Assembly: GCA_023265925.1 (NCBI GenBank)
Contig: JAHFSD010000009.1
Location: forward strand, 1-39,562
Reading direction: 5' to 3'
Length of the DNA stretch: 39,562 nucleotides
Source of the DNA: an archaeon
Lineage (GTDB): Archaea > Nanobdellota > Nanobdellia > Woesearchaeales > GW2011-AR9
In this document: positions 1,183 to 34,465 of the stretch, piece after piece
Layout of the letters: each line of letters begins with the position of its first letter
Numbering within the stretch: the first letter of the stretch is position 1
Position numbers and translations under genes: made by a program
The notes under the pieces: generated by a model
Database searches by the model: none
What the model was told of the DNA's origin: nothing
The model's input: only the letters and a program-made list of their open reading frames with translations

Positions 1183-1196
1183 GACTAAAGAAATAC

Positions 1197-2153: not shown

Positions 2154-2198
2154 TATAGTGATAACTAGAAGAGTACAGTTTATATAAATATTTTGGTT
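2090..2198 (-). repeat. 109-bp direct repeat, copy 1 (promoter plus signal-peptide coding part)
   Basis: This stretch and 3935-4043 are the same length and differ at only a handful of bases. Each holds the first 20 or so codons of a minus-strand gene, its start codon and its TATA box (about 2181-2190 here). The repeat ends in the promoter, just before the + strand tail fragment. It shows that the minus-strand gene and its promoter were duplicated recently as DNA. Confidence 0.85.
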
Positions 2199-2220
2199 CA
2201 TTATTCGCAATGGCAGAATA

Positions 2221-2595
2221 GGGGAGTCGGATGAATGCTCTGCTCAGTCTCAGAAAATCGAGACATTGGCCGATTGTCTGGATAGGGCTCAAATGCAAAA
2301 ATTTGCCAAGAAACCAATTGGTTTAGCGCCGGGAACGAAAGGACCATCACCTGATCCTGCTCCTCCCGGTGATGAAGTTGGTGGTACACAAGTTCCAGCT
2401 TGTGATGAAACGAGGGAGAGTGGAGGAGCAGGGGGATATTTTGGAACTAAGAAGAACTCGGCAGATGATTGTATTATTGGCGACTTCTGTGATTTTGCCC
2501 AGTGGGCAGGAGCATCTTCATTGGCAACAATAAACAAAAAATGCCAGATGGTTCAAGTCGAAAATGGAAAGCTGCCTTGCCCACCGTTGCAATAA
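2221..2595 (+). pseudogene. Degraded copy B of the Cys-rich gene's 3' end
   Basis: An open + frame with no credible start or promoter that aligns along its whole length with the last 125 codons of the gene ending at 1182. Shared landmarks are Cys-Ser-Ala-Gln near the start (DECSAQSQK versus GDCSGQAEK), the Pro-rich linker, GDEVGGTQVP, GGAGGYFGTKKNSADD and CIIGDFCDF. The reading frame is intact to its stop, so the fragment either came from a functional homologue recently or is still used. The last 43 bases overlap, tail to tail, with the minus-strand gene ending at 2553. Confidence 0.8.
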
Positions 2596-3497
2596 GAAGA
2601 TTTAAGTGTAAAAAATTCTTTGTTTTTACGGGGCCCATACCTTTCCAGGTCACGTAAACACTCTTTATTGTTTTTACAAAGGCCTCTCATTATCTCCTCA
2701 GTGAAAGGTATTCTATAACCATTCCATAGACTGCCGATAGCATATCCGTAATCTTTTTCCCGTACTGCTTTTCTGCTATCCTCTATCGCTTCCCGAAACT
2801 CCTTGGATTTTTCAATAAGTTCCCGGCCTCTTTCTCGGTTCCCTAAATACCATTCGATTTTACCGGCACGCAAGTGATCTCCCTGTTGCAAATGTTCGTC
2901 ACGTACTCGAGGAAGATCTTCCCGCGGCGTGAGTTTAAGGTAGGCTTCAAATCCGTGACGGTCTCTTCGTAAGTTTTCTCTTGCTTTCTTAAGATACTCG
3001 GCGTTTTTATAAAGATCAAAGAGGTAATAATCTACTCTTCCGGCATTTCCATAATGGCCAAGCGACTCGTAGTGCTTAACAATGTCTTCCATTCGTTCAC
3101 GATGTACTGGCGTTTTTGGTTTAGAAAAACAGAGAGCTAAGTTAACATCGATTGCGACAATCGTGCTGATAGAAGGATCAGCTCCATGCCCCCTCTCTAG
3201 TTTTTCATAGAGCTTCTGTTCTAGTATGGTCTGGTATCTCCAGTGTTCATATTCTAATTCCTTCCTGTTGCATCCTAGTTCCTTAGTAATCTTATCAATT
3301 TCATACGGTATTATTTTTTTGGGAGTGATACTTTTGACATAGTTATTATATTCATCATCTCGTACCTTCTGTGTCATGTTTTTTCTGGAAACGGACTGGC
3401 CGGGAACGTCACCAAAACTTCTTCCAGTGAATGACCCGCTGAAGCCGAGGATTCCAAGCATTGCTGTTATTCCTGCTGCCAAAGATGTTTTTTTCAT
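2553..3497 (-). CDS. Exported alpha-helical (TPR-like) protein, paralogue 2
   Basis: A 314-residue protein starting MKKTSLAAGITAMLGILGFSG, a signal peptide, followed by charged helical repeats. It shares with paralogue 1 the block around RAGKIEWYLGNRERGRELI, the ME(D)-helix HYESLGHYGNAGR and the C-terminal IPFTEEIMRGLCKNNKECL with two Cys. Its N-terminal third differs from paralogue 1, so the family evolves mosaically. A TATA box (TATTTAAAG, about 3545-3553) lies upstream; an alternative start at 3518 would be leaderless. The end overlaps the 3' end of tail copy B, so its last 14 codons are antisense to that fragment and may have been gained by read-through into it. Function unknown. Confidence 0.72.
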   Translation of the reverse strand: MKKTSLAAGITAMLGILGFSGSFTGRSFGDVPGQSVSRKNMTQKVRDDEYNNYVKSITPKKIIPYEIDKITKELGCNRKELEYEHWRYQTILEQKLYEKLERGHGADPSISTIVAIDVNLALCFSKPKTPVHRERMEDIVKHYESLGHYGNAGRVDYYLFDLYKNAEYLKKARENLRRDRHGFEAYLKLTPREDLPRVRDEHLQQGDHLRAGKIEWYLGNRERGRELIEKSKEFREAIEDSRKAVREKDYGYAIGSLWNGYRIPFTEEIMRGLCKNNKECLRDLERYGPRKNKEFFTLKSSYCNGGQGSFPFST

Positions 3498-3571
3498 TGT
3501 TTTTACCTTTAAGAACATCTCACCATCTATTCCCATACTTTGATTCTTTAAATACTTTTTGTAACAATTTT

Positions 3572-3667
3572 GGCCAGTCTCAGAAAACTGGTGCCTTAGC
3601 TGATTGCCCGGATTGAACTCAATTCAGCAGATGATTGTATTATTGGCGACTTCTGTGATTTTGGCGG
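3572..3667 (+). pseudogene. Degraded copy C of the Cys-rich gene's 3' end, internally deleted
   Basis: Two pieces of the tail are joined. Bases 3572-3615 match the Cys-helix of copy B (GQSQK...LADCPD) and end in a TGA; bases about 3616-3667 match the end of the tail (NSADDCIIGDFCDFGG). The Pro-rich middle of the module is missing. The + fragment then runs straight into the 3' end of a truncated minus-strand gene. Confidence 0.75.
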
Positions 3668-3998
3668 TAGGAAGAGCCGCCTCCGCCGCGGCAAGTCTTT
3701 TTAGAAGTTCTGTGTGTTTCTTCCGTATTTCTTCTTCATCACAGATCTTTTGTATTCCTTCCACTTCTAAATCTTTTCTGTGGATAAATGGCAGGACGAC
3801 TTCAAGCGTATTGATGTATTGTTTATAGGGATCGCTCTCAACAGCTGTTCGTTTCTTTCCCTTTTCCAGCCTATTCTTTCCCGCCGATTGTATTTCAACC
3901 GCTTCGGCTTCTCTCTTTCCATAGTTGCCCTGCTGAGCGGTAAAAGAGCTAAGGCCAATCAGCCCGGCTAACGTTAAGGAAATGGATAATTCTTTCAT
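3624..3998 (-). pseudogene. Truncated paralogue 3 of the exported helical protein
   Basis: The first 110 or so residues match paralogue 1 closely (MKELSISLTLAGLIGLSS, then INTLEVVLPFIHRKDLEVEG and IQKICDEEEIRKKHTELL). After PTAK the frame crosses into DNA that is antisense to tail copy C and stops eleven codons later. The family's 200-residue C-terminal domain is therefore lost. The promoter repeat is intact, so a 124-residue exported fragment could still be made. Most likely a remnant of a recombination between repeat units. Confidence 0.75.
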
Positions 3999-4043
3999 CA
4001 TAGTGATAACTGGAAGAGTACAGTTTATATAAATATTTTGGTT
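3935..4043 (-). repeat. 109-bp direct repeat, copy 2
   Basis: Near-identical to 2090-2198 and in the same orientation. It contains the start of the truncated paralogue, its start codon at 3998 and a TATA box at about 4024-4035. The repeats are 1.85 kb apart and could support deletion or duplication of the unit between them. Confidence 0.85.
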
Positions 4044-4053
4044 GTATTTTGAT

Positions 4054-4190
4054 CATTGCTGGTAAGAGAGCTGGACGAATGCTTCGCCCAAGCCCAGAAG
4101 ATAAATGCTTTCGCCGATTGCCTGGACAAATCCAAGTTAAAAAATATTGAACAGCCCAGCGGTCTTGCACCGGCCAGGCAATCGGTATAA
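4054..4190 (+). pseudogene. Degraded copy D of the Cys-rich gene's tail
   Basis: Reads LDECFAQAQK, then FADCLDKSKL and PSGLAPARQSV before a TAA stop at 4188-4190. It lines up with the first third of tail copy B (DECSAQSQK, LADCLDRAQM, PIGLAPG). It stops before the GDEVGG part, so it is truncated at the 3' side. No start codon or promoter is visible for it. Confidence 0.75.
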
Positions 4191-4271
4191 GCTCATTCAC
4201 CTCTGCTCTGTGGAGCGGAGTCCTCTGAGCCGAGTTAATAGATTTATAAACTTCTGACTTTTCCATACCCT

Positions 4272-6020
4272 ATGAATCCTGAGAACAGCTGGCTGCGGAA
4301 AATTCTGCAGGTCGTGCCGGAAATCAAGGCGGGAATTGGAAAAGGAATTGTTATCGCCGCCCTCTATGAAGGGATCAAAATTATCCCCATCATTATTATT
4401 AAGCACATCATTGACTATTTTGTCACTAATCAAAGCAATACCGTTCAATTAATCTATTTTATCGGCGGAGTATTGCTCGCCTACGTCGTCTTGGAAATCA
4501 TCGACTATTTCTCAGAAAAAGCCAGTTTCAAATGGACCATCCGCTATGAAACCACCCTGCTCCGGAAAGCCAAGAAAAAACTGTTGGAACTGCATTTGGG
4601 GTACCATGAATCTTTCAACACGGGAGCACAGGTCTCCAAGATTACCAAAGGAACACATAAGCTGACCGAATTAGTTTATTTTACCTTTGAAGAATTTATC
4701 CCGACTACGATCCAGTTAGTGATTACGCTGAGTTTACTGTTTTATGAGCAGTGGGTCCTGGCGCTGCTGTTCGCTTTATTTACTCCGCTGATCCTTCTGG
4801 TTACACTGCACGCCTCAAAAAAAGTACAGCCCTACCGCAAGAAGTATCATCAGAAGTATGATGAAGCCGTCGGCGAATTAGGAGAAAGCCTCCTGAACAT
4901 TACCACCGTCAAAGATTATGTTCAGGAACAGCGGCAATTCCGGAAATTCAATGTTTTATTAGGCGAATATATTGCCAATGCGCAGAAGCGCTGGGAAATA
5001 GGGTCATCAATCTTTCTGTGGAGGAATTTACTGATCAGCATTGGCCGTGTTCTGACGCTGGCAGTAGCCGCCTATCTGGTCCTGAAAGGGACGTTAAGTG
5101 CCGGCAGCCTGGTGTTGGTCTATACGCTCACGGAACGGGCCTTTTTAGCAACGCAGCGCATTGGCAGGTTGTACAATTACCTGGGAGATGCTATGGAATC
5201 CATTAACCGCTTAACGTCCTTGCTGCAGGAGCAAGCGGAAGTCAAAAATTATCCCGGTGCCCTATCGGTATCAAAACTCCAAGGCCAAGTTGAATTTAAA
5301 GATCTTACTTTTTCCTACAGCTCAGGAAACCCGGTGCTCTCCGCGGTAAATCTTGGTATCAAACCTCGCCAGATCGTGGCCTTGGTGGGGCGTTCCGGCT
5401 CAGGAAAAACCACAATGGCTAAATTGGTATTGCGAAATTATGATGTTGCTCAGGGAGCAGTGCTGGTCGATGGGAAGAACATTAAACAGTACAAGATCGA
5501 AGATTACAAGAAACGAATTGCCGTGGTTTCGCAGAATGTCGAAATCTTTAACCGCACCGCGCTGGAAAATATTTTATTTGCCAACCCGCTGGCAACAAAA
5601 AGGCAGGCGATTGCCGCGGCTAAGAAAGCGCATGCCCACGAGTTTATTCTGGGGTTCTCTCAAGGATATGACACGCTGGTAGGAGAAAAAGGTGTGCGCT
5701 TATCCGGCGGACAGAAACAGCGGATTAGTATCGCCCGTGCCTTGCTCAAGAATCCGGACATCTATATTTTTGATGAAGCGACATCTTCCCTTGACACGGA
5801 ATCAGAGCAATATATCCAGAAATCGATCTTTTCCATTGCCGGCAAGAAAACGACGATTATTATTGCCCATCGCTTGTCCACGATCCGGAAGGCTGATCTC
5901 ATTGTTGTCATGGATAAAGGGAAAATTGTGGAGCAGGGGACTTATGATGAACTGTGGCAGAAACAAGGCGCGTTCTGGAAAATGATTCAACTGCAGAAAG
6001 TGGTGGAGTTGAGGGAATGA
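4272..6020 (+). CDS. ABC-type exporter, permease fused to ATPase (MsbA/MDR-like half-transporter)
   Basis: A 582-residue half-transporter that works as a homodimer in the membrane and exports a lipid, drug or peptide using ATP. Residues 1-320 are the six-helix exporter domain (hydrophobic stretches IIPIIIIKHIIDYF, LIYFIGGVLLAYVV, LALLFALFTPLILLV). Residues about 340-580 are the nucleotide-binding domain with Walker A GRSGSGKTT (about 373), signature LSGGQKQR (about 477), Walker B IYIFDEATS (about 498) and H-loop IIAHRLST (about 531). All catalytic motifs are present and the length is normal. A TATA-like ATTTATAAAC (about 4241-4252) fits a leaderless start at 4272. The stop overlaps the start of the next gene. 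The substrate cannot be read from the sequence. Confidence 0.95.
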   Translation: MNPENSWLRKILQVVPEIKAGIGKGIVIAALYEGIKIIPIIIIKHIIDYFVTNQSNTVQLIYFIGGVLLAYVVLEIIDYFSEKASFKWTIRYETTLLRKAKKKLLELHLGYHESFNTGAQVSKITKGTHKLTELVYFTFEEFIPTTIQLVITLSLLFYEQWVLALLFALFTPLILLVTLHASKKVQPYRKKYHQKYDEAVGELGESLLNITTVKDYVQEQRQFRKFNVLLGEYIANAQKRWEIGSSIFLWRNLLISIGRVLTLAVAAYLVLKGTLSAGSLVLVYTLTERAFLATQRIGRLYNYLGDAMESINRLTSLLQEQAEVKNYPGALSVSKLQGQVEFKDLTFSYSSGNPVLSAVNLGIKPRQIVALVGRSGSGKTTMAKLVLRNYDVAQGAVLVDGKNIKQYKIEDYKKRIAVVSQNVEIFNRTALENILFANPLATKRQAIAAAKKAHAHEFILGFSQGYDTLVGEKGVRLSGGQKQRISIARALLKNPDIYIFDEATSSLDTESEQYIQKSIFSIAGKKTTIIIAHRLSTIRKADLIVVMDKGKIVEQGTYDELWQKQGAFWKMIQLQKVVELRE

Positions 6021-8244: not shown

Positions 8245-9789
8245 TTAAAATTTTGTCACACTCACCTGCCCTTTCCTTTTCCCTTCCGGCACGGCCTCGA
8301 CTTCCTCCCCCACCTGCTTCTGGACATCTTCAGCAATCGCTTTCCCCAGGATCTGGCTTAACGTGGCCAGGCCTGCTTTTTTTACATCCCCTAAATCCCG
8401 GATGCTATTGCTGTACAACTTCCGGCCCCGGACCCGGCCGATTCCTTTTAATTTTAGTAACGGCAGCAATTCTTCTTTCACGCCATCCTGCACCCGCAGC
8501 CGTACCTTGCGGATTTCCCGCAGCGCTTCCCGATAATGAAGCAGCGTGCTCAACTCTTCCAGGGCGTACAACAGCCAGTCGGCAATCTCCAGCTTGGCGC
8601 GGATTTCTCCCGGACGAATGTCGTACTTTTCCATCAGGAAATCTTCATCTTTCTCGCTGATCCAGTCTTCCAGGAACAAGGCGGTCTTGACCGAATTGAT
8701 GAAATCGTCGTAGTCAGGATCAAAGGGGGACGGCTCGTTCATCAGCAGTTGGCCGTAATGTTTAGTTAATTCTTCCTGAACCAGCTCTTCGTCTTTTTTC
8801 CTGAGCCGCAGCAAGGGACGCATCTCTAACGTACAGCAGATCAGTTGCAGGAGGGAGAAAGGTGTCATCGTCATTTCAGCAGCATTCCGCAGGCCGTCCA
8901 GCAGGTGGCGGGCAGTCAAGGGATCGAGGTATAATTCTGAAACGCGCTGGCCAATCAAGGTGGCTCGGAAAGCAGCGGCTTTCCCTACTGAGGAAGCCGC
9001 CACAGAGGAAGCCGCCACAAAATCGCCTTGCTCCCCGCTGCTGCTCTTCACAAATTCCCACTGTTCCAGGAGGGAGAACATCCGTACCAGAAGAATCTGC
9101 AGTTTTTCCAGGTCACCATATTGATGCGCCCAAAAGGTCTGGCGGAAGAACTCGTTCATGCTCGGTTGATCATGGATGATACTGGTGGAAATTAAAGAAA
9201 GCAGGTAGGTTCGCAGTACCGGTTCGGCTGCTAACTTGGAATAAATCTCTTCCGGCTCGCCGCAAATGTAGCGAGCATGGATTTCTTCTTTCTCGGCTTC
9301 ACTGTTGGCCATGGCGATTGCTTCACCAAATTTCTCAAATTCCGGCCTTCCCGCCCGTCCGGCCATCTGCAGATACTCTAACACAGGAATCCAGTCCATC
9401 CCCCACTGCTCCGAGTAACGTTTCAAGGATTTGATGATCACGCGGAAAGCCGGCAGGGACAGCCCCATCGCTAAAGTGGGCGTAGCGCAAATAATTCTGA
9501 GAGTGCCATTTCGGAATTCCGTTTCAATCAATTCCCGCTGGGCGGCAACCAGGCCAGCGTGGTGGAAGGCGATCCCTTTTCGGACGCAGTGGGACAGCCG
9601 GCGGCATTGCTTGGTGGGCGTGGAAACGGCATGAAGAATCTTCTGCTCCAGTTCGGGATGCTGGAACGAGGTTAATTTGGCAATTTCTTCTGCCGTTTTT
9701 TCAGCACTCGCCCGGCTGGGACAGAAAATGAACGCCTGCTTGTTGAGCTGCAGGGTCTCTAAGGCTAGGTGCTGGGTGGGATCGAGCAT
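8245..9789 (-). CDS. Hel308/Ski2-family helicase lacking the first RecA domain
   Basis: A 514-residue protein that begins just before helicase motif IV (AFIFCPSRASAEKTAEEI) and contains the Hel308-like FHHAGL motif, motif V (ATPTLAMGLSLPA) and motif VI (QMAGRAGRP). A winged-helix and ratchet region follow, then a helix-hairpin-helix near LKGIGRVRGRKLY. Walker A and the DEAH box are absent: the first 200 or so residues of a normal Hel308 (about 700) are missing. The gene has its own TATA box (9812-9819) 23 bases before ATG 9789, and the upstream DNA encodes an unrelated divergent gene. This is therefore a stand-alone half, probably of a split helicase whose other half is elsewhere. Alone it cannot hydrolyse ATP. 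Confidence 0.85.
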   Translation of the reverse strand: MLDPTQHLALETLQLNKQAFIFCPSRASAEKTAEEIAKLTSFQHPELEQKILHAVSTPTKQCRRLSHCVRKGIAFHHAGLVAAQRELIETEFRNGTLRIICATPTLAMGLSLPAFRVIIKSLKRYSEQWGMDWIPVLEYLQMAGRAGRPEFEKFGEAIAMANSEAEKEEIHARYICGEPEEIYSKLAAEPVLRTYLLSLISTSIIHDQPSMNEFFRQTFWAHQYGDLEKLQILLVRMFSLLEQWEFVKSSSGEQGDFVAASSVAASSVGKAAAFRATLIGQRVSELYLDPLTARHLLDGLRNAAEMTMTPFSLLQLICCTLEMRPLLRLRKKDEELVQEELTKHYGQLLMNEPSPFDPDYDDFINSVKTALFLEDWISEKDEDFLMEKYDIRPGEIRAKLEIADWLLYALEELSTLLHYREALREIRKVRLRVQDGVKEELLPLLKLKGIGRVRGRKLYSNSIRDLGDVKKAGLATLSQILGKAIAEDVQKQVGEEVEAVPEGKRKGQVSVTKF

Positions 9790-20424: not shown

Positions 20425-20521
20425 AATCAAAAAGAGGTTTTCTACTGCTTAAATATGTTTGGGTAAATTTCACCCGTTTCTCAACAATATTTTTAAATCA
20501 CCACTCTTCTTCAGTATTTAT

Positions 20522-21982
20522 ATGCATTATACAATCTTGGATTGCTACACCGATGAAGCCTCCGGCTTAGGCGTTCCTCCTTATTTAGGCACCTATCCGC
20601 GCTATATTTACGGGCAATTGAAGACGGAAGGACATACTGTTTCCTATCTCACCATTGACGATCTACGTCTCTGGAAGAACTATGGGGGAGTACGGCGGGA
20701 ACCCACCGTCAAACAAAAAACGAATATTCTGGTATACAATACCACCAACAATAATGCCCGGGATATTCTGGCCAGAACTGACGTTCTTATCGTCATCATC
20801 GGCGTCCATGTGCCGGGGAAATATCTTACCGCTCTTCCGGGAACGCTGAGAGAAGTAATTCCGCTCCTCCGGGAGTTGCCGATGAAAAAGATTCTTACCG
20901 GCCCCGTCATTTTTGGCACGCAGTTAGAGGGGGGAAAACTGTTTGAGAATGCCGACCTTTCCCTATTTGATGAAATAAAAGATTTCACCCTGCCCTTCGA
21001 CAAACTGGATCAGTATGCCATCGCTGGTGCAGAAATCCTGACACAAATTCCTGATAAAAGAGTTATTGAAATCGAGACCAGCCGCGGCTGTAACGTCGGC
21101 AAGTGCAGTTTCTGCACCGAACCATTGAAAAGTAAATTTGTGAACCGCAGCAAAGATTCTGTTGTTCAGGAAGTAAAAGCATTTTATGGCCGGGGAGCAC
21201 GTTTTATCCGGTTGGGCAAGCAGGCAGATTTCTACTCTTCGGACCAGCCGATTGAAATGCTGCAGGAAATCCGAGAATCCTGCCCGGATTTGGAAATGCT
21301 GCATATTGATAACGTCAACCCCAATTTTGTGGTGCGTCCGGGAGGGGAAGAAATTACCAAAGCGATTGTCGAATACTGTACTTCTGGCAACATTGCCGCT
21401 TTTGGGATAGAAAGCTTTGATCCGGCGGTGGTGAAGGCAAATTTGCTGAATACTATGCCAGCAGTGGCAATGAAAGCAATCCAGATCATCAATAAGTATG
21501 GGGCCAAGAGAGGAGAGAACGGCATGCCCTGCTTCTTGCCAGGGATCAACATCATCTTTGGCTTGTTGAACGAAACCAAGGAAACGCACCAGAAAAACAT
21601 AGAAGCGCTTACCTACATCCTCCAGGATGGTTTATTGCTGCGTCGAATCAATATCCGGCAGGTGGCGATACTGCCCAACACCTATATTCATCAGCATGGC
21701 GGGCATAAATATCTGCTGAAGAACAAAAAGTATTACTGGAAGTGGCGAAATGAAATCCGGCAGACGATTGATAATCCGATGTTGGCAAGGATTTTGCCGA
21801 AAGGAACGATCATTAAAGACGTCTGGACCGAAATGTATGATGGCAAAACCACCTTCTGCCGGCAGATGGGGACCTATCCATTGGTGATTGGCATTAAAGG
21901 ACGATTGCCGCTGAAGCAGAAAATTTCCGTGAAAGTCACGGGGTATATGTTGAGGAGTGTGGTGGGCGAAGTGCTCTCTTAA
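20522..21982 (+). CDS. Radical SAM protein with N-terminal cobalamin-binding-like domain and TRAM-like tail
   Basis: A 486-residue protein. Residues 1-170 resemble the Rossmann-like B12-binding domain found before many radical SAM cores. The iron-sulfur motif lies at about 185-196 (SRGCNVGKCSFCTE, spacing Cx4Cx2C). The core continues to about 420, with the conserved GIESFDP and LPGINIIFGL. The last 60 residues look like a small beta-barrel TRAM-like RNA-binding domain. The family is related to archaeal MJ_0865-like proteins of unsettled function; tRNA or RNA modification is plausible. The start at 20522 lies 25 bases from an ATTTTTAAAT box. Its last 16 codons are repeated at 24224-24271. Confidence 0.85.
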   Translation: MHYTILDCYTDEASGLGVPPYLGTYPRYIYGQLKTEGHTVSYLTIDDLRLWKNYGGVRREPTVKQKTNILVYNTTNNNARDILARTDVLIVIIGVHVPGKYLTALPGTLREVIPLLRELPMKKILTGPVIFGTQLEGGKLFENADLSLFDEIKDFTLPFDKLDQYAIAGAEILTQIPDKRVIEIETSRGCNVGKCSFCTEPLKSKFVNRSKDSVVQEVKAFYGRGARFIRLGKQADFYSSDQPIEMLQEIRESCPDLEMLHIDNVNPNFVVRPGGEEITKAIVEYCTSGNIAAFGIESFDPAVVKANLLNTMPAVAMKAIQIINKYGAKRGENGMPCFLPGINIIFGLLNETKETHQKNIEALTYILQDGLLLRRINIRQVAILPNTYIHQHGGHKYLLKNKKYYWKWRNEIRQTIDNPMLARILPKGTIIKDVWTEMYDGKTTFCRQMGTYPLVIGIKGRLPLKQKISVKVTGYMLRSVVGEVLS

Positions 21983-22569
21983 AGTATCAATTCTTTTACT
22001 AGTGTTAAAAATTCTTCTGCTCTTCTTAGGGAGGTCTCTGCTTTTGCTTTTTCTGCAATCTTTCCGATTTCATAGGTAAATTCCCGTCGTTTGCTCAATT
22101 CGAACCTCACTTGTTCAACCTTCTCCCGCGCTTGTTGTTCTGCAATCTGCAACAATTCAGAAGCTTCTTCCCCGGCTTGCCGATATTGTTCCAGAAGATG
22201 TTTCGATAATTTCCGATCATTATCTAAAAAGTAGTATACCAGAGCATGGTAGGTAAGCATATGGATTCCTTGCTCTCCTTTGATTCGATGATTATACCTT
22301 GCCAACAAGGACGTGGCAGCATAAAACATCGAATAATAGGCGGCATTTATTGTCCACAGGTACCCTTCATAAGAGGAAGATAGTTGTAATTGTAGCTTTA
22401 ATTCAGGATTTAATGAAACGTTTACGATGAAATGCGCAGTTTCTAAGGCTTGATTTGCCTTGGCCAGGAAAAAATCCTGGTATTCGCGGCCGGCGGGAAG
22501 GATCAGGCCCTCTTTAATCAGTTGTTGTACTACTCTCCGCGATTCTCCAATTTCTTTATCTGTAATCAT
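21979..22569 (-). CDS. HEPN-domain protein of a HEPN/MNT toxin-antitoxin pair
   Basis: A 196-residue helical protein. The HEPN signature region is INAAYYSMFYAATSLLARYN followed by HRIKGEQGIHMLTYHALVYYF. HEPN proteins of this kind are ribonucleases or are neutralised by nucleotidyl transfer from their MNT partner. Its start overlaps the stop of the MNT gene by 4 bases (ATGA), showing translational coupling. A long C-terminal coiled-coil region (about 130-196) extends the usual 130-150-residue domain. The gene converges on the radical SAM gene and the two stop codons overlap. Confidence 0.85.
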   Translation of the reverse strand: MITDKEIGESRRVVQQLIKEGLILPAGREYQDFFLAKANQALETAHFIVNVSLNPELKLQLQLSSSYEGYLWTINAAYYSMFYAATSLLARYNHRIKGEQGIHMLTYHALVYYFLDNDRKLSKHLLEQYRQAGEEASELLQIAEQQAREKVEQVRFELSKRREFTYEIGKIAEKAKAETSLRRAEEFLTLVKELIL

Positions 22570-23165
22570 CGTGCCAGCAATCTGTAATAAAACTCTGCTC
22601 CGTATAATATCAGATGATTCTTCAGCACTTCCTTGCGGACATTTAAAGCTTTCTCCTTTCCCATTTCTCTAAAGCTCTCTTCGGTAATAACATTTATATC
22701 TACTGGATACCGTAACAAACGTAACCGGGCCGAGACTTCCCCTTCAAACTGCTCCCGGTTAACGTCATTTGGTACGATAAATAAAAGATCGATGTCGCTG
22801 TTCTTTCTGGCGGTTTCCGGCACTCTGCTTCCAAATAGCAGGGCGGTATAATACACTGTCGGCAAGTTTTTCAGTTCATTAATAATCACCTTTACTTCCG
22901 GGTGTTTTTTCTGAAAAGAAGCCGTACGTAAACTTTCCAGATAGGCATAGAGGGGGATTTTTTGAGAAAGAGCGAGAGAACAAACCGTACTATGCCCCCT
23001 TTTTTTAAGCAGGATTATTTCCTCCTTGGCGAGGCTGATGATTTCCTGATGAACCTGCCGGTAATTAATCGTCGTGGTCAGAGACACTTCCCGGATGGTA
23101 TACTCTCGGGTAGGATCTCTCAGCAACAGCAGGAGTAGCTGTTCTCTCACGTTCGTTAACACCAT
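22566..23165 (-). CDS. MNT-type minimal nucleotidyltransferase fused to a winged helix
   Basis: A 199-residue protein. Residues about 1-75 form a winged helix-turn-helix (YTIREVSLTTTINYRQVHQEI). Residues about 85-190 form a minimal nucleotidyltransferase with GSRVPETARKNSDIDLLFIV (GSx10DxD) and a third Asp in YPVDINVI, the full metal-binding triad. In HEPN/MNT systems this enzyme is the antitoxin: it transfers AMP or another nucleotide to the HEPN partner. The fused winged helix probably makes it an autoregulator. An inverted repeat lies directly before its start codon. Start ATG 23165 fits a leaderless transcript. Confidence 0.85.
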   Translation of the reverse strand: MVLTNVREQLLLLLLRDPTREYTIREVSLTTTINYRQVHQEIISLAKEEIILLKKRGHSTVCSLALSQKIPLYAYLESLRTASFQKKHPEVKVIINELKNLPTVYYTALLFGSRVPETARKNSDIDLLFIVPNDVNREQFEGEVSARLRLLRYPVDINVITEESFREMGKEKALNVRKEVLKNHLILYGAEFYYRLLAR

Positions 23166-23286: not shown

Positions 23287-24198
23287 ATGACATTAGACAC
23301 ACTCTTACAGGAATTAGGATTAACTGCGGATCAGGCTGCTGGTGTGCTGGCGGATGAATGGTTTCTTATCCGGAATGAGGCTACGTTACGGGAGAGGCTA
23401 GGTATTATGCAGGAAACCTATGGATGTACTCGACAACAGATCGGCGAGGTCATAGTAAAACATCCGCAATTTGCCAGCTATGATCACGCCCGCGTCATCA
23501 GGGAAGCAGTAAAAATTTATGGAACAGAAAATACAGAAAGGCTGAAGGAAGCAATACTAAAACATCCGCCATTTGCCAGCCTGGATCACACTCGTGTCAT
23601 CAGGGAAGCAACAGAAGTCTATGGGGCAGAAAATACAGAAAGGGTGGAGGAAGCAATACTAAAACATCCGCCATTTGCCGGCTTAGATCACACTCGCGTC
23701 ATCAGCGAAGCAGCAGAAGTCTATGAGACAGTAAACACAGGAAGAGTGAAAGAAGCGATATTAAAATTTCCTCAATTTGCCGACTTAGATCACACTCGCG
23801 TCATCAGGGAAGCGGTGGAAGTGTATGGGACAGTAAATATAGAACGAGTGAAAGAAGCGATATTGAAATTTCCGCCATTTGCTGGCTATGATCACGCTCG
23901 TGTTCTGCGCCAGGCAGCCCGCCTTGGCAGATTGGTGGGGCTCTTGCATGATCAATGCCTGGAACATACCCTACACAATCCAAGATTGGTAGGATATTCC
24001 GCGAAACGCCACCTTGCTGTCATCGATATCGGCCGATCACTGGTAAAAGAAGGCTATGATCCGGAAGAAATGCTGGAAGTGTATTTGGGCTGCTGCTCCT
24101 TCAGTCCTTACCTGCCCGGCAGGAAAAGGATCTCTCAGGCTGCTGGTCCGGAACCGCCACTGATGAAAGTAATGAGGAGGAGGCTGCGGAAGTTGTAG
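23287..24198 (+). CDS. Protein with tandem 34-residue helical repeats (mTERF-like appearance)
   Basis: A 303-residue protein. After an N-terminal helical part, residues about 75-220 hold four near-identical 34-residue repeats plus two diverged flanking ones, each with AILKHPPFA-x-x-DHxRVIREA and EVYG. The repeated Pro-Phe between two helices resembles mTERF motifs, which bind nucleic acid as helical superhelices; the match is by eye only. Variation is concentrated at the two residues before the conserved DH (SY, SL, GL, DL, GY). The C-terminal 80 residues are non-repetitive and end in a basic run. ATG 23287 lies 22 bases from a CTTATAAG box. The gene diverges from the HEPN/MNT operon. Confidence 0.7.
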   Translation: MTLDTLLQELGLTADQAAGVLADEWFLIRNEATLRERLGIMQETYGCTRQQIGEVIVKHPQFASYDHARVIREAVKIYGTENTERLKEAILKHPPFASLDHTRVIREATEVYGAENTERVEEAILKHPPFAGLDHTRVISEAAEVYETVNTGRVKEAILKFPQFADLDHTRVIREAVEVYGTVNIERVKEAILKFPPFAGYDHARVLRQAARLGRLVGLLHDQCLEHTLHNPRLVGYSAKRHLAVIDIGRSLVKEGYDPEEMLEVYLGCCSFSPYLPGRKRISQAAGPEPPLMKVMRRRLRKL

Positions 24199-24223: not shown

Positions 24224-24271
24224 GTGACCTGGTATATGCTGAGGAGTGTGGTGAGCGAAGTGCTCTCCTAA
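24224..24271 (+). pseudogene. Second copy of the last 16 codons of the radical SAM gene
   Basis: Aligns codon for codon with 21935-21982, including the stop. Four of the codon differences are silent and two change the residue (Gly to Trp, Gly to Ser). The fragment follows the 34-residue-repeat gene by 25 bases and has no start of its own. Like copy 1, it is directly followed by a convergent minus-strand gene. Confidence 0.85.
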
Positions 24272-26016: not shown

Positions 26017-26325
26017 TTATTTTATTTTCATCAATACTTTCATTTCTTGTTCCAAATCTTCCAGAGAATAGGCTGAAGTGAATCCTTGGTCAATGAGATA
26101 ATGCTGCATCTCCCACAGAGTCAATCCGGCGCGGTAGGCTGCCTCCGAAAAGGTTATTTTTCCCTCTTTGTATAACTGGACAGCTTTCTCTTTGAGTCGT
26201 TCTCGATACCCTTTGTCAATCAATAGACGTATAATCGTACTTCGGTCCGCTAGTTCCTCCTCACCCAACGTATCAATCTTCTCTAAAAGAGCAGAGTCCA
26301 TGCGCAGTGCTACTATATCGCTCAT
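26017..26325 (-). CDS. Antitoxin-like protein: ribbon-helix-helix plus UPF0175-type helix-turn-helix
   Basis: A 102-residue protein. Residues about 3-40 look like a ribbon-helix-helix DNA-binding domain (VALRMDSALLEKIDTL, then STIIRLLIDKG). Residues about 45-85 have the UPF0175 pattern (AVQLYKEGKITFSEAAYRAG, then LTLWEMQHYL). UPF0175 proteins are antitoxins of PIN toxins. Its ATG overlaps the stop of the upstream PIN gene by 4 bases. Toxin-first gene order with coupled antitoxin translation is seen. It should bind both the PIN protein and the operon promoter (inference). Confidence 0.82.
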   Translation of the reverse strand: MSDIVALRMDSALLEKIDTLGEEELADRSTIIRLLIDKGYRERLKEKAVQLYKEGKITFSEAAYRAGLTLWEMQHYLIDQGFTSAYSLEDLEQEMKVLMKIK

Positions 26326-26813
26326 CGTTCAGCCTCCATAATGATTTTATCCCAGACCATATTGGAAAACCAAGCTGTTTCCTTGAGTACTTTGATCGCT
26401 TCTTTGAGCTGGCGTTGATCAATTTTTTTCTTTTTGTACAGCTGCAGGAGTATCGAAGGTGTGCCAATAATCGCCAGTTGGAGCAGCATTTTTTTCTTCC
26501 GGACATTGTCATCATCGGTGGCCAACAACTCTGCTTTCTTCTCCCAGTAGAGGGCCACGGCCTCTGCTTCGCCTCGCTGCAGATTAAACTGGTGGGCTTT
26601 GAACAATAAAGTTTTGTCTTTAATAGTTTCTACTCTGATCTTGGCCTGTCCGATCAGGTCCTGAATGAGGCGGGCATCAGGATAATCCGATCGTGTCGCC
26701 TCTTCCCTCACCAGCGGAGGGATGATGATGTTCTTAAAGTAGTCACAGCTTTTTTCCAGCAGGTTTGCTTTGGCGAGGTGGATCAAGACCATCGCATCTT
26801 TCACGATGAGCAT
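26322..26813 (-). CDS. PIN-domain toxin (DUF3368/VapC-like)
   Basis: A 163-residue protein. The PIN core shows IVKDAMVLIHLAKANLLEKS at the N-terminus (first Asp), the middle IIIPPLVREEATRS and RGEAEAVALYWEKKAELLATDDDNVR with the acidic residues of the nuclease centre. The family cleaves RNA, usually tRNA or rRNA, when not bound by antitoxin. ATG 26813 lies 25 bases from a TATATATT box (about 26838-26850); the longer frame upstream would include the promoter. It is coupled to the UPF0175-type gene downstream. Confidence 0.85.
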   Translation of the reverse strand: MLIVKDAMVLIHLAKANLLEKSCDYFKNIIIPPLVREEATRSDYPDARLIQDLIGQAKIRVETIKDKTLLFKAHQFNLQRGEAEAVALYWEKKAELLATDDDNVRKKKMLLQLAIIGTPSILLQLYKKKKIDQRQLKEAIKVLKETAWFSNMVWDKIIMEAER

Positions 26814-26878
26814 TAGTATAACGTTGTAAACAATGTAATATATAAGTTTTTCGGTTCTTACGTCACACTGTTCCAATC

Positions 26879-30325: not shown

Positions 30326-30535
30326 ATGGCCAAGAAATGCATCATCTGCAATGAGGAAGCAGCCTATAAGATAAAAGATACGCCCGACTTCTACTGCCCG
30401 GACTGCGCCCAGGAAAATTTTAACGACTTGACTTTGCTCATTAAAGTGGAAGAAGATGCCCAGCGGCTGAAACAGGTGGTGGAAGGAGACCAGGTGATGA
30501 CAGAGAGACACGACGATGACCTATCACACGCTTAA
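30326..30535 (+). CDS. Small zinc-ribbon protein
   Basis: A 69-residue protein with two Cys pairs, CIICNEEA at residues 5-8 and CPDCAQEN at about 26-29, forming one zinc site. An acidic helical tail follows (EDAQRLKQVVEG). It overlaps the start of the site-2 protease gene by 20 bases in another frame, implying a two-gene operon. Archaea have many such small ribbon proteins; its target is unknown. Confidence 0.75.
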   Translation: MAKKCIICNEEAAYKIKDTPDFYCPDCAQENFNDLTLLIKVEEDAQRLKQVVEGDQVMTERHDDDLSHA

Positions 30536-31142
30536 GATTGGCAGTGTTGCTACTTCTAAAACTGAAGTGGTGGATATCCTGAAAGCCTGGTTAGCCTTAT
30601 CGCTGGCCTTTGCTTTCATCTATTCCGGTGCCAGCATTCTGGGAGGCTCGATCAGCAACGTATTTTCGCTCCCTTTCCTGATTTTATTTGTCATTTCCCT
30701 CTTTACCGCCGGCTTAGGCTTCCTGCTGCACGAATTATCGCATAAATTTGTCGCTCAGCGTTATGGCTGTGTGGCTGAATTCCGTGCCTGGGACCAGATG
30801 ATCCTGCTGGCACTAGGGTTGGCAATATTTGTCGGCTTCATTTTTGCTGCACCGGGAGCCGTGATGATTTCCGGGATGGTAACACGGCGGGAGAATGGGA
30901 TTATCAGCGTGGCCGGAGCCATGACAAATTACCTTCTGGGATTGCTCTTTTTAGGAGTGGGCTTTCTGTATCCTTTCCTTAAACCCATTACGGCCATCGG
31001 CTTTGGCATCAACATGTGGCTGGGCTTGTTTAACATGATTCCCTTCGGGCCATTGGACGGGTTAAAAGTCTTCCACTGGAATAAGATTGTGTGGCTGGGA
31101 ATGGTGGCAGTGGGCGGGTACTTTGTGTTTTTCCTTCGATGA
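30516..31142 (+). CDS. Site-2 protease family membrane metalloprotease (M50)
   Basis: A 208-residue polytopic membrane protein. The zinc-binding motif HELSH lies in a membrane helix at about 71-75 (FLLHELSHKFVAQRYG). The second conserved motif, NMIPFGPLDGLK at about 173-184, supplies the third zinc ligand Asp. Five or six hydrophobic segments surround these. Such enzymes cut membrane-bound regulators within the bilayer. The start overlaps the zinc-ribbon gene. The last 23 codons are repeated in diverged form at 31370-31438. Confidence 0.88.
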   Translation: MTYHTLKIGSVATSKTEVVDILKAWLALSLAFAFIYSGASILGGSISNVFSLPFLILFVISLFTAGLGFLLHELSHKFVAQRYGCVAEFRAWDQMILLALGLAIFVGFIFAAPGAVMISGMVTRRENGIISVAGAMTNYLLGLLFLGVGFLYPFLKPITAIGFGINMWLGLFNMIPFGPLDGLKVFHWNKIVWLGMVAVGGYFVFFLR

Positions 31143-31148
31143 GAACCA

Positions 31149-31304
31149 TTACTGTAGTACGTGGAAAGCTCCCGCTTTAAATTGTTCCCGGCCGAGTTTT
31201 ATCCCCTGTTGAAATTCAATCTCTTCAATCAACTCGAGGCTCTGTAAGAGTGATTGCTGAAGATGTCCAAAATCTTCTTTCTTAATGGTAATTGTTTCGG
31301 CCAT
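31149..31304 (-). CDS. Small acidic protein, 51 residues, between the two protease tails
   Basis: MAETITIKKEDFGHLQQSLL is followed by an acidic helix with LELIEEIEF and ends HVLQ. A TATA-like TTAAATAATA (about 31335-31345) precedes the ATG by about 30 bases. It converges on the site-2 protease gene with 6 bases between the stops. The start MAETITI recalls the antitoxin at 33552 (MTAETITTRL), and the helical remainder would suit a small antitoxin, but this is weak. Confidence 0.6.
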   Translation of the reverse strand: MAETITIKKEDFGHLQQSLLQSLELIEEIEFQQGIKLGREQFKAGAFHVLQ

Positions 31305-31369
31305 ATTCTCCACTGTTATAGGGTCTAAAGAGCAGGTATTATTTAAATTTAACTCTTCTTTTTGTTTAT

Positions 31370-31438
31370 TTTCACTGGAATAAGATCGTCTGGCTAGGGA
31401 TGGCGGCAGTGGGAGTGTTGTTTGTGTTTGTTCTTTAA
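31370..31438 (+). pseudogene. Diverged second copy of the site-2 protease gene's 3' end
   Basis: Aligns with 31071-31142 from Phe-His-Trp-Asn-Lys to the stop region (FHWNKIVWLGM in both). Differences are mostly silent third positions (six silent codons by eye against four or five replacements, the latter near the end). It has no start or upstream gene body, so it is a 22-codon orphan tail. Confidence 0.85.
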
Positions 31439-31486
31439 AGAAAACGTGGGTAAGATTAATAAAAAACCAACCAAAATTACCGGGAG

Positions 31487-33175
31487 ATGTCCTTTTACCA
31501 GGAAACCATCGCCGTACTCAGGCAGAAGAATTTATCTGAGAAAGAACTCTCGGCTTTAAAGCGGGAGCTCTCCCAGAAATACAAGTTAAAAACCATTCCC
31601 ACCAACATTCAGATCTTTCTAAATGCTTCACAGCACGATATCGAATTCCTGAAACCCCGATTGCTGACTAAGCCAGTGCGGACGATTTCGGGAGTGGCGC
31701 CCGTAGCCTTGATGACTGCTCCCTCCCGCTGTCCTCATGGAAAATGCACGTTTTGTCCCGGCGGCCTGGGCAGTCCCTGGGGTGACGTTCCCCAATCTTA
31801 TACTGGCCATGAGCCGGCTACCATGAGAGGCATTCGCAATAATTATGATTCCTACCTGATGATGTTTAACCGCTTAGAGCAGTATGCCATTTTAGGCCAT
31901 AGCTTTGACAAGGTGGAAATCATCATTATGGGTGGGACGTTTCCGGCAACACCTTTAGAGTATCAGGAAACTTTTATCCGGGATGCTTTTCAGGCAATGA
32001 ACGATTTTTCAGAACTGTTTTTTGATGCCCAAAACGGGTTGGAAGGAAAGTTTGAGTATCTCAGATTTAAAGAATTTTTTGAACTGCCCGCCAATGTCCA
32101 TGATCCGGAACGGATGAAGAGGCTTCACCGGAAATTACTGCAACTGAAGCACGCTACCAAGACTACCCTCCTCGAAGAACAGGAAAAAAACGAAACAGTC
32201 CAGGTTCGCTGCGTCGCCCTCTGCATTGAAACCAAGCCGGACTGGGGTTTTCTGGAGCATGGCAACGAAATGCTGCGACAGGGCTGTACAAGAGTGGAGC
32301 TGGGGATTGAATCGGTCTATGATGACGTTCTTCTGCACACTCACCGCGGCCATACGGCTGCTGACTCAAAGAAATCAATCCAGATTCTCCGCGATCTTGG
32401 CTTTAAAATCAATTTTCATTACATGCCTGGCCTGCCGTTAACGGACCGGGAGCGGGATGTTCAGGGAATGAAACAACTGTTTGACGATCCGGGATACAAG
32501 CCCGACATGATCAAATTCTATCCCTGCATGGTCGCTCCCGGAACGGCTCTGTATTATCAGTATAAACAAAGAAAATTTACACCTATTTCGACGGAAGAAG
32601 CGGCTGAGCGCTTAGTGCCCATCAAGGAATATACACCGGAATACTGCCGCATCCAACGCATTCAGCGGGACGTGCCTACCAAATACTGGTCTGCTGGCGT
32701 TGACCGGACTAATTTCCGGCAGTATCTTCATGAGAATTATCAATTCACCTGTCGCTGCATCCGCTGCCGCGAGCCAAAAGGCAGGAAAGTTAATTGGGAA
32801 AAGGCAGAGATCAAAGTTAGGGAGTATGAAGCCTCAGGGGGGAAAGAATTTTTTATCGCTGCGGAAGATACGGAAAACGACCTCCTGATCGGCTTTTGCC
32901 GTCTGCGCTTTCCCTCTCAATATCTCCGTCCGGAAATAATTCCTGGAAGTGCCTTGATCCGGGAGCTGCATGTGTATGGAACTGCGACTGCCCTTGGCGA
33001 GGAGGGTGTAGTACAACATCGCGGCTGGGGCAGGAAATTGATGGAGAAAGCGGAAGAGATTGCCCGGCGGAATGGAAAATTCAAGATGGTGGTTATTTCG
33101 GGAGTGGGAACGAGGGAATATTATAAAAAGTTAGGGTATGGGAAGGAAGGGGTGTATGTGGTGAAGAGTCTTTAA
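31487..33175 (+). CDS. elp3: Elp3: tRNA uridine-34 modifying radical SAM/acetyltransferase
   Basis: A 562-residue protein of normal Elp3 length. It puts the carboxymethyl group on wobble uridine (cm5U) of tRNA, using acetyl-CoA and S-adenosylmethionine. The N-terminal segment binds tRNA. The radical SAM core carries CPHGKCTFCPGG at about 82-93, then IIMGGTFPATP and GIESVYDDVLLHTHRGHT. A Cys-rich zinc motif lies near residue 420 (CRCIRCRE). The C-terminal GNAT domain includes RELHVYGTA, the acetyl-CoA loop HRGWGRKLMEKAEEIA and the closing YYKKLGYGKEG. The start ATG at 31487 follows a GGGAG ribosome-binding site. It stands alone in transcription. Confidence 0.95.
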   Translation: MSFYQETIAVLRQKNLSEKELSALKRELSQKYKLKTIPTNIQIFLNASQHDIEFLKPRLLTKPVRTISGVAPVALMTAPSRCPHGKCTFCPGGLGSPWGDVPQSYTGHEPATMRGIRNNYDSYLMMFNRLEQYAILGHSFDKVEIIIMGGTFPATPLEYQETFIRDAFQAMNDFSELFFDAQNGLEGKFEYLRFKEFFELPANVHDPERMKRLHRKLLQLKHATKTTLLEEQEKNETVQVRCVALCIETKPDWGFLEHGNEMLRQGCTRVELGIESVYDDVLLHTHRGHTAADSKKSIQILRDLGFKINFHYMPGLPLTDRERDVQGMKQLFDDPGYKPDMIKFYPCMVAPGTALYYQYKQRKFTPISTEEAAERLVPIKEYTPEYCRIQRIQRDVPTKYWSAGVDRTNFRQYLHENYQFTCRCIRCREPKGRKVNWEKAEIKVREYEASGGKEFFIAAEDTENDLLIGFCRLRFPSQYLRPEIIPGSALIRELHVYGTATALGEEGVVQHRGWGRKLMEKAEEIARRNGKFKMVVISGVGTREYYKKLGYGKEGVYVVKSL

Positions 33176-33234: not shown

Positions 33235-33552
33235 TCACCATACAATTCCGTCGAAAGGTAGTATCCCTTCCTGCTCCAGCTCTTCCGCATCGAGCTGTAG
33301 GGGAACTTTATATTCTTTCAGGAGATCGCTGAATTTCCAGACGGAAACTTTGGCAAATCTGGTGGCCTGTCCAAAGGAGAACACTCCTGATTGATAGAAT
33401 TCTAAAGCTTTGTGGATGCGCCACTGCTGCATTCCCTGAACTAACAGCCGACGCAGCACTTCTGATTTCCCTAAATGTTCTACCTGTGATGCCTCGGAAA
33501 TCTCCTTCACGAGTTCCTGAGGAAGACGCGTCGTAATCGTTTCTGCAGTCAT
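33235..33552 (-). CDS. Solitary antitoxin-like protein (RHH plus UPF0175 region)
   Basis: A 105-residue protein. Residues 1-40 resemble a ribbon-helix-helix domain (ITTRLPQELVKEISEA, then SEVLRRLLVQG). Residues about 45-80 match the UPF0175 pattern (ALEFYQSGVFSFGQATRFAK, then VSVWKFSDLL). Most such proteins are paired with a PIN toxin, but no PIN gene lies next to it on its strand. A TATA-like TTAAATAGTA lies 20-30 bases upstream. It may be an orphan antitoxin or regulator. Confidence 0.78.
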   Translation of the reverse strand: MTAETITTRLPQELVKEISEASQVEHLGKSEVLRRLLVQGMQQWRIHKALEFYQSGVFSFGQATRFAKVSVWKFSDLLKEYKVPLQLDAEELEQEGILPFDGIVW

Positions 33553-33630
33553 GTTTTAAAAGTAAGACAATATACTATTTAAGCTTTTCGGCAGGTAAAT
33601 TTAAATAACCAGCGCTCAACAGCACAGCCT

Positions 33631-33888
33631 ATGCCCGTAATCAATAACCACCTCCTCCGCCACGCTAAACGCTGGATCATCATCGTTATTGGCTTCAGCG
33701 TGCTTCTTCTGGGCATCGCCCTGATTTTCCTTCCCGGGCCGGCGATCCTGGTCATACCGCTGGGATTGGCAATTCTGGGCACGGAACTGCTCTGGGCACG
33801 ACGGTTGTGGAAAAGGATCAAAGGGCAGAAAGAAGAGGAGGAAGAGAGCAGGAAAGCAGGGGAAGAAGAAAGCAGGAAAGAGGTATAA
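33631..33888 (+). CDS. PGPGW-family small membrane protein
   Basis: An 85-residue protein with two membrane helices around the family core LLLGIALIFLPGPAILVIPL, whose PGP turn defines the PGPGW (putative transmembrane protein) family; the final Gly-Trp of the name is replaced by Ala-Ile here. The C-terminal 25 residues are Glu/Lys-rich and cytoplasmic. A TTTAAATAA box lies about 23 bases before the ATG. The family's function is not known. Confidence 0.8.
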   Translation: MPVINNHLLRHAKRWIIIVIGFSVLLLGIALIFLPGPAILVIPLGLAILGTELLWARRLWKRIKGQKEEEEESRKAGEEESRKEV

Positions 33889-33973
33889 ATGGTGCCACAG
33901 AACTCAGTAATAAACTTATTTGTCAGTAGTAAATATAGGAAAATTTATAAATAAAGAGTGATTCTATCTAGAG

Positions 33974-34465
33974 ATGAAAGATAAAGTTGTAGTCGTCAAT
34001 ACTGCCCCTTTCATCCACTTAGCGAGAGCCGGGAGGTTAGAAGTTTTGCTTGACGTTTACAAAGAGGTCTATTCCCCCACTGGCGTGGAAGAGGAGTTGC
34101 TATTTCCGGCGCAGGCCCGTAGTTTTTTGGAAACATACGTTAAAGTAAAAGCTACCACCAATAAAGCTGCCGAGGAAGAGCTTGCCAGGAAACAGAGGAA
34201 ACTAGGAAAAGGCGAAATACAGTCTTATATTTTGTATAGAGAGATCGAAGCTGACGAGTTATTATTTGCCAATACCAAAGCACAGAGAATTCTCTCCGGA
34301 CTTGGTGCAAAGGTTCGGGATCTTATCCATCTACCGGGGTTGGACAGAGACTCAAAAATCTTCATCCACCAACAAGAGATTGATAAGTACCATCTGGATC
34401 TATGGAATGCTAACTACCAAACAAAAGAACTGGAAGGGGAGCTACGCCGAAGAGGGTTGATATAA
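33974..34465 (+). CDS. PIN-domain-like protein with altered catalytic residues
   Basis: A 163-residue protein of the DUF3368/PIN kind: VVVNTAPFIHLARAGRLEVL at the N-terminus, then VYSPTGVEEELL, GKGEIQSYILYREI and LLFANTKAQRILSGLGAKV. In active members the first strand ends in Asp and the LLFAN position is Asp-Asp/Asp-x; here both are Asn. The middle Glu is kept. The protein may therefore bind but not cut RNA. A TTTATAAAT box is 22 bases upstream. It overlaps by 24 bases, tail to tail, with a minus-strand HTH gene. Confidence 0.72.
   Translation: MKDKVVVVNTAPFIHLARAGRLEVLLDVYKEVYSPTGVEEELLFPAQARSFLETYVKVKATTNKAAEEELARKQRKLGKGEIQSYILYREIEADELLFANTKAQRILSGLGAKVRDLIHLPGLDRDSKIFIHQQEIDKYHLDLWNANYQTKELEGELRRRGLI

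Follow-up and report, generated by a model that had tools for sequence, protein, structure and literature searches.

Integrase-driven elements insert at the 3′ ends of tRNA and other genes in such a way that the target gene is restored and its displaced tail marks the far end of the element, and casposons insert in archaea at gene 3′ ends with a target duplication of 14 to 27 nt. Insertion with long target duplication is reportedly known for restriction-modification genes of bacteria, from work by Nobusato in 2000 and by Furuta in 2010. According to a review (PMC3874152), the insertion of certain restriction-modification systems is accompanied by target duplications of variable length, which are long, on the order of 100 bp. 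It has long been asked how chromosomal toxin-antitoxin (TA) genes, lacking a carrier, pass from one genome to another, and among the open-licence papers searched, no description was found of TA genes with target duplication or of direct repeats of such kind in Woesearchaeota.

The loci described here resemble the bacterial insertions as those review passages portray them (PMC3874152), in that selfish or addictive genes lie, without a transposase, between long and variable direct copies of the target. They differ in their cargo (TA-type genes, PIN genes, an AAA-DUF4143 gene or a lone small antitoxin-like gene), in their Woesearchaeota-type archaeal host, in the length of the copies (16 to 86 nt) and in the many genes hit within one genome. 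No known process comes closer to these loci than insertion with long target duplication, and since the cargo is not a restriction-modification unit, the present loci are filed as a variant, outside the restriction-modification set. The long target duplication itself is already known; what sets the loci apart is their cargo, the archaeal host and how often a single genome was hit, which widens the process from restriction-modification genes of bacteria to TA-type genes and a lone small gene of archaea. Archaeal integron cassettes are likewise small units with TA genes, found in archaea including Nanoarchaeota (PMC9668308); integron cassettes share folded attC sites and use IntI, whereas the repeats here are coding tails of different genes and are unrelated between loci.

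The window (the whole 39,562-nt stretch that was analysed, contig C48) belongs to a genome of 1.2 Mb in 57 contigs (86% complete; G000). The target is an M50-like site-2 protease gene (30516–31142, plus strand; Pfam PF02163, E = 1.2e-5, just under the cut-off), whose homologues occur in 47 of 49 genomes of the family. Its intact stop is reached through tail copy 1 (31071–31142, plus strand), the functional 3′ end, which reads FHWNKIVWLGMVAVGGYFVFFLR up to the stop. There follows an insert of 227 nt (31143–31369; GC 0.37) that holds only a 51-codon convergent gene (31149–31304, minus strand; 51 aa from ATG), with its stop 6 nt from that of the protease, and the promoter region of that gene. Tail copy 2 (31370–31438, plus strand) reads FHWNKIVWLGMAAVGVLFVFVL in a frame that stays open to a TAA, and is succeeded by 48 nt of native intergenic DNA (31439–31486, plus strand) with the elp3 promoter-like TTAATAAAAAA, aligned with ATCTTAATAAAAAAATAGCC in the same-genus genome G001, and by the Elp3 gene itself (31487–33175, plus strand; Pfam). 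The part that recurs is the last 66 to 72 nt of the protease gene; the copies agree at 54 of 66 nt without gaps (79% over 76 nt), and their match score of 36 in the window scan compares with about 13 to 15 for unrelated gene tails. The duplication around the small-gene insert is real, and the initial annotation, which had described a protease tail repeated around a single 51-codon gene, is confirmed on this point as well as in its view that one tiny gene makes up the entire cargo. The “own TATA box” it gave the gene survives in a weaker form, as a TATA-like stretch, TTTAAATA (31340–31347, minus strand), which lies about 35 nt before the ATG and is recognised by its resemblance to the consensus.

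In G001 the protease gene is followed by 62 nt and then by elp3, with nothing between them and no counterpart of the 227-nt insert. Copy 2 and the sequence downstream of it, promoter-like stretch included, align to this native junction, so that copy 2 is at the native place, the added part is copy 1 plus the small gene, and the event at the protease locus was an insertion, at a gene 3′ end as had been proposed. The empty-site argument rests on one genome, G001 being the only other genome of the genus compared; among 29 relatives' loci with flanks of up to 1.5 kb (L003–L031), Elp3 lies beside the protease in G001 only. An insertion with long target duplication, in this instance moving TA-type genes in archaea, is probably the best reading of these data. 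A unit of 227 bp, consisting of one antitoxin-like gene and its promoter, would have entered the 3′ end of the protease gene, about 70 bp of target being copied on the way; upstream, the protease would have retained an entire tail with its stop (copy 1), and its native tail (copy 2), now displaced, would have stayed beside elp3 and the elp3 promoter. The duplication was presumably made in the act of insertion, for example through fill-in of a widely staggered break or through a replication template switch that returned upstream of its exit point. The survival of such insertions may be owed to the duplication, which does the target gene no harm: an insertion that duplicates a gene end leaves the gene whole, and gene ends are therefore where survivors are seen.

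A second explanation for the repeated tail is that it is foreign. A protease tail with the small gene attached, from a related archaeon, would have recombined homologously at one end and illegitimately at the other, making copy 1 the donor tail and copy 2 the native one. We consider this unlikely, although it accounts for several features of the locus, beginning with the match of copy 2 and its downstream sequence to G001. The copies differ at 12 of 66 nt, unequally over codon positions (1, 3 and 8 differences at positions 1, 2 and 3; third-position excess over 1/3, P = 0.019). By codon, six differences are silent and four are replacements, in addition to a different last residue and stop, so that silent differences are in the majority, as stated earlier, by a narrow margin only; the silent excess over the neutral expectation of 0.207 is nonetheless significant (P = 0.008). 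Such an excess suits a foreign tail, but a copied tail of which only copy 1 is under selection predicts an equal one. The silent-change count was therefore rejected as proof of a foreign tail, and the argument of the initial annotation that silent differences exclude a local duplication is not supported. Ten relatives match either copy at 35 to 49 of 66 nt, the best for copy 1 being G009 (49/66), and at 54/66 the copies are thus each other's nearest kin, which favours duplication within the lineage over a donor. Copy identities over all the cases given below run from 82% to 100%, with identical copies (21/21 or 35/35) in some, which speaks against foreign tails; the protease, at 82%, is the most diverged case, and this was counted against target duplication.

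The direction of change is less easily accommodated. Resolvable changes, polarised with G001 and G022, assign two silent changes to copy 2 and three replacements to copy 1, the functional one, a pattern that fits neither simple story well. As the reverse of what a freely decaying displaced copy would show, it counts against target duplication. The C-terminus of copy 2 (VLFVFVL) resembles that of G022 (ILFVFVL), and the end of copy 1 (YFVFFLR) resembles those of other genera (VYFVFFLR in G037, IYLVFFLR in G034); the latter likeness is explicable by a foreign tail and also counts against target duplication. Together, the polarised changes and the C-terminus of copy 1 keep the foreign tail alive as a rival to insertion with target duplication.

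Searches of Pfam and NCBIfam with the 51-aa protein gave no family match, and a scan of the contigs of the genome with it found nothing. Its conservation across the order is thin, with matches in 3 of 352 genomes counting its own, and the better of the two other homologues (G006; 43% identity over 42 aa) overlaps a ParE/RelE-type toxin gene tail to tail. That pair lies between tail copies of a large gene, and the gap next to it contains a Fic-family gene, so that the only good homologue of the small gene is also cargo of such an insertion, beside a toxin. From the neighbourhood of this homologue, the gene in the window is a putative lone antitoxin. An insert holding a lone antitoxin-like gene, and not a complete addiction pair, counts against the reading as target-duplicating insertion. 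The surrounding region of G006 (L197, 5732–10800) forms an array in which the tail of a 771-aa gene is repeated; its successive gaps contain the Fic gene, the ParE-type gene (8921–9181) with the small antitoxin-like gene, and a BRO gene.

To place the protease in context, about 45% of G000 (539 kb, 607 gene tails) and samples of relatives were scanned for copied gene ends. Overall, 20 of 1434 tails had a copy downstream (15 of 607 in G000, these being the only tails of that genome to score at least 18), compared with an upstream copy for 15 of 1371 heads and an inverted copy for 3 of 1434 tails; paralogues and a dispersed palindromic repeat account for most of the hits among heads. The 15 hits in G000 comprise the eight cases used here (S2P, radical-SAM, RtcB, UDG, IMPDH, RNA polymerase N, DUF218 and Ffh), four in a repeat array at window positions 1–4300 and three tandem paralogues. 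Of five further hits, all from other genomes, TrmB (G006) and Ffh (G044) were kept, two in G023 were tandem paralogues, and one in G044, a match of 18 nt, was discarded; no such insertion was seen in what was sampled of G023 and G008. The cargo between the tail copies in G000 is HicBA at RtcB, a RelE-type toxin with an antitoxin-like gene at UDG (uracil-DNA glycosylase), VapC with a partner gene at IMPDH, an AAA-DUF4143 gene at RNA polymerase N and a PIN gene at DUF218 (of 12 relatives, just one had a homologue of the DUF218 gene); in G006 the TrmB tail is duplicated around a HEPN-like/MNT pair. The claim that the process recurs at other gene ends is upheld by RtcB, radical-SAM, IMPDH, RNA polymerase N, UDG and DUF218. 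Taken alone, the protease locus is of modest weight, and it is the pattern over several loci that carries the case.

Within the window, the radical-SAM gene (20459–21982, plus strand) offers a second insertion. Its tail copy 1 (21935–21982, plus strand), identified by the window scan, is followed on the minus strand by a TA-type pair (21979–23165) made up of a HEPN gene (21979–22569; Pfam HEPN, E = 0.0029, below the cut-off) and an MNT nucleotidyltransferase gene (22566–23165; NTP_transf_2, E = 3e-8; NCBIfam MntA antitoxin, E = 2e-7, below the cut-off), and tail copy 2 lies at 24224–24271 (plus strand), with a decayed counterpart in G001. Also inside this insertion is a gene (23452–23961) for a repeat protein of tandem 102-nt (34-residue) units. 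The radical-SAM unit, with its HEPN-MNT pair and repeat protein, is found in G001 as well (L198, contig C113; 84% identical), where the tail copy has decayed. Because the unit is present in G001, its insertion is older than the split that the protease insertion postdates.

Tails are not the sole target. A DUF1016/YhcG nuclease gene lies between 62-nt copies (53 identical) of the head of a class I tRNA synthetase gene (L047, 5716–6871), adjoining the IMPDH-VapC insertion, and for this reason a strict preference for tails is not claimed. The Ffh tails differ in another respect, being duplicated in two genera around spacers of only 62 and 79 nt that hold no gene: in G000 the spacer is a 62-nt dispersed palindromic element, and in G044 (copies identical at 35/35) it is another palindrome. 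Gene-free spacers of this kind are what one would expect had duplication and insertion been unrelated events, a tail first being duplicated in tandem and a gene entering between the copies later, or had the small open reading frame at the protease been spurious. We regard this as very improbable, given that the Ffh spacer of G000 is itself a dispersed element, that the homologue of the small gene sits beside a toxin gene and likewise between gene-tail copies, and that at all seven repeat-flanked HicBA loci with an intact HicA the downstream copy begins no more than 10 nt from the HicA stop (loci scoring at least 13.5, with L143, where HicA is broken, left out), which ties the duplication to the insertion.

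HicBA and HEPN-MNT genes were then followed across the order to establish whose sequence is duplicated. HicB was found in 74 of 352 genomes and HEPN-MNT in 111 of 352, and 30 loci of each, for HicB those with the best matches, were examined. Flanking repeats with a score of at least 16 occurred at 5 of 29 testable HicBA loci and 4 of 28 HEPN-MNT loci, compared with 9 of 859 control gene units; with the two HicBA loci known beforehand removed, 3 of 27 retained such repeats (P = 0.005). Two of the three best control units are themselves real cases: one is the DUF4143 gene that lies in the tail of RNA polymerase N, the other the DUF1016/YhcG nuclease. Most loci have no repeat of this kind (24 of 29 HicBA and 24 of 28 HEPN-MNT), through age or another route. 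The HicBA repeat is the rtcB tail in G000 and G009, the mutL tail in G202 (score 14.5, below the cut of at least 16) and other sequence elsewhere. It is thus the sequence of the gene that was hit locally, and belongs to the target rather than being carried by the gene pair. An interpretation of the tail as a cassette-borne attachment site, drawn from HicBA at rtcB in two genera, was dropped, given that HicBA elsewhere is flanked by the tail of the local gene.

At rtcB, empty sites are seen in G022 and G042, where a native lipoprotein-like neighbour follows the gene, whereas the structure of HicBA plus repeated tail is present in G009 as well as in G000, and HicB alone follows rtcB in G037; G001 gave no rtcB match. 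Identity between the rtcB copies extends 11 nt beyond the stop into intergenic DNA, which a donor from another species should not share, and this is a further point against foreign tails. HicBA or HicB therefore follows RtcB in three genera (G000, G009 and G037), and in two of these a second rtcB tail comes after HicA (L034, 67–1181; L133, 1–620, minus strand; L131, 1075–1540, minus strand). In a 30-row HicBA tree G000 and G009 did not group, with weak support, and the rtcB insertions may reflect either a hotspot or one old insertion.

Among the open reading frames of the inserts there was no transposase, integrase or recombinase gene. No terminal inverted repeats stood out above shuffles in eight inserts (0.03 to 0.76 of shuffles were as good), and the protease copies fold no better than shuffled sequence. 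No core is common to the repeats of nine loci, a score of 9 being reached in just 3 of 36 pairwise comparisons, with matches of 9 to 12 nt; a motif suspected by eye at the S2P and radical-SAM junctions (CTGGnATAnG) was dropped for lack of a core across the nine loci. These results bear on the possibility of site-specific integration, in which a tyrosine recombinase, working in trans, would insert small circles with the gene tail as their attachment site, as integrases do at the 3′ ends of tRNA and other genes. In its favour are the geometry, which is that of attL/attR at the 3′ end of a gene that the incoming tail makes whole again, and a single Xer-like PF00589 recombinase fragment in the 86% complete assembly. 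The want of a common core, the occurrence of the same HicBA type in different genes with a local repeat each time, and the nuclease gene flanked by copies of a gene head make it a distant prospect. Compared with integrase-driven elements, the restored gene and displaced tail are the same, but the cargo holds no integrase and the target genes differ. Unlike casposons, the insertions have no terminal inverted repeats, their duplications are mostly longer than 14 to 27 nt, and no Cas1 was found in the 86% complete assembly.

About ten such insertions in these genomes suggest that small selfish genes spread in this way without a transposase. The process that acted on the protease would, under insertion with target duplication, also be the one by which TA pairs, along with other selfish genes like them, reached numerous gene ends in this archaeal order. 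A more general proposition is that Woesearchaeota-type archaea have a transposase-free route by which units down to a single antitoxin-like gene enter gene ends, with 20 to 90 bp of target copied and the host gene surviving, and which can be repeated at one site so as to build arrays of tail copies with TA cargo; we put this forward tentatively, as a possibility that falls short of being probable. If it were true, TA genes, even lone antitoxins, would be mobile elements in their own right in these archaea. Within one lineage the loci provide polarised insertions into different targets, with empty sites and exact junctions, making the process countable and its junctions comparable, and they account for orphan gene tails, which annotation would otherwise list as fragments.

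Several further structures were observed in the window and in the sampled genome. In the window, a gene tail containing NSADDCIIGDFCDF is present in three to four copies between positions 46 and 4266, with convergent, unrelated genes between them (1197–2210, 2553–3536 and 3624–4001, minus strand), an arrangement like that of repeated insertions at one gene end; a tail related to this array also begins contig C5 (L036, 23–202). TA-type genes are dense in the window, which includes two UPF0175 antitoxin-like genes beside PIN/DUF3368-like genes (26017–26876 and 33235–34465). The dispersed palindromic element, of about 60 nt (CGTGGGG..CCCCAC), has five copies in the sampled part of G000; the positions for the element and for the Ffh tails are L073 4007–4114 (minus strand), L061 13873, L068 6186, L071 3304 and 3486, and L113 2555–2703. 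Elsewhere in L061 (3514–4755), an MNT nucleotidyltransferase gene has an intact gene on one side and, on the other, a shortened version of that gene in which head and tail are joined.
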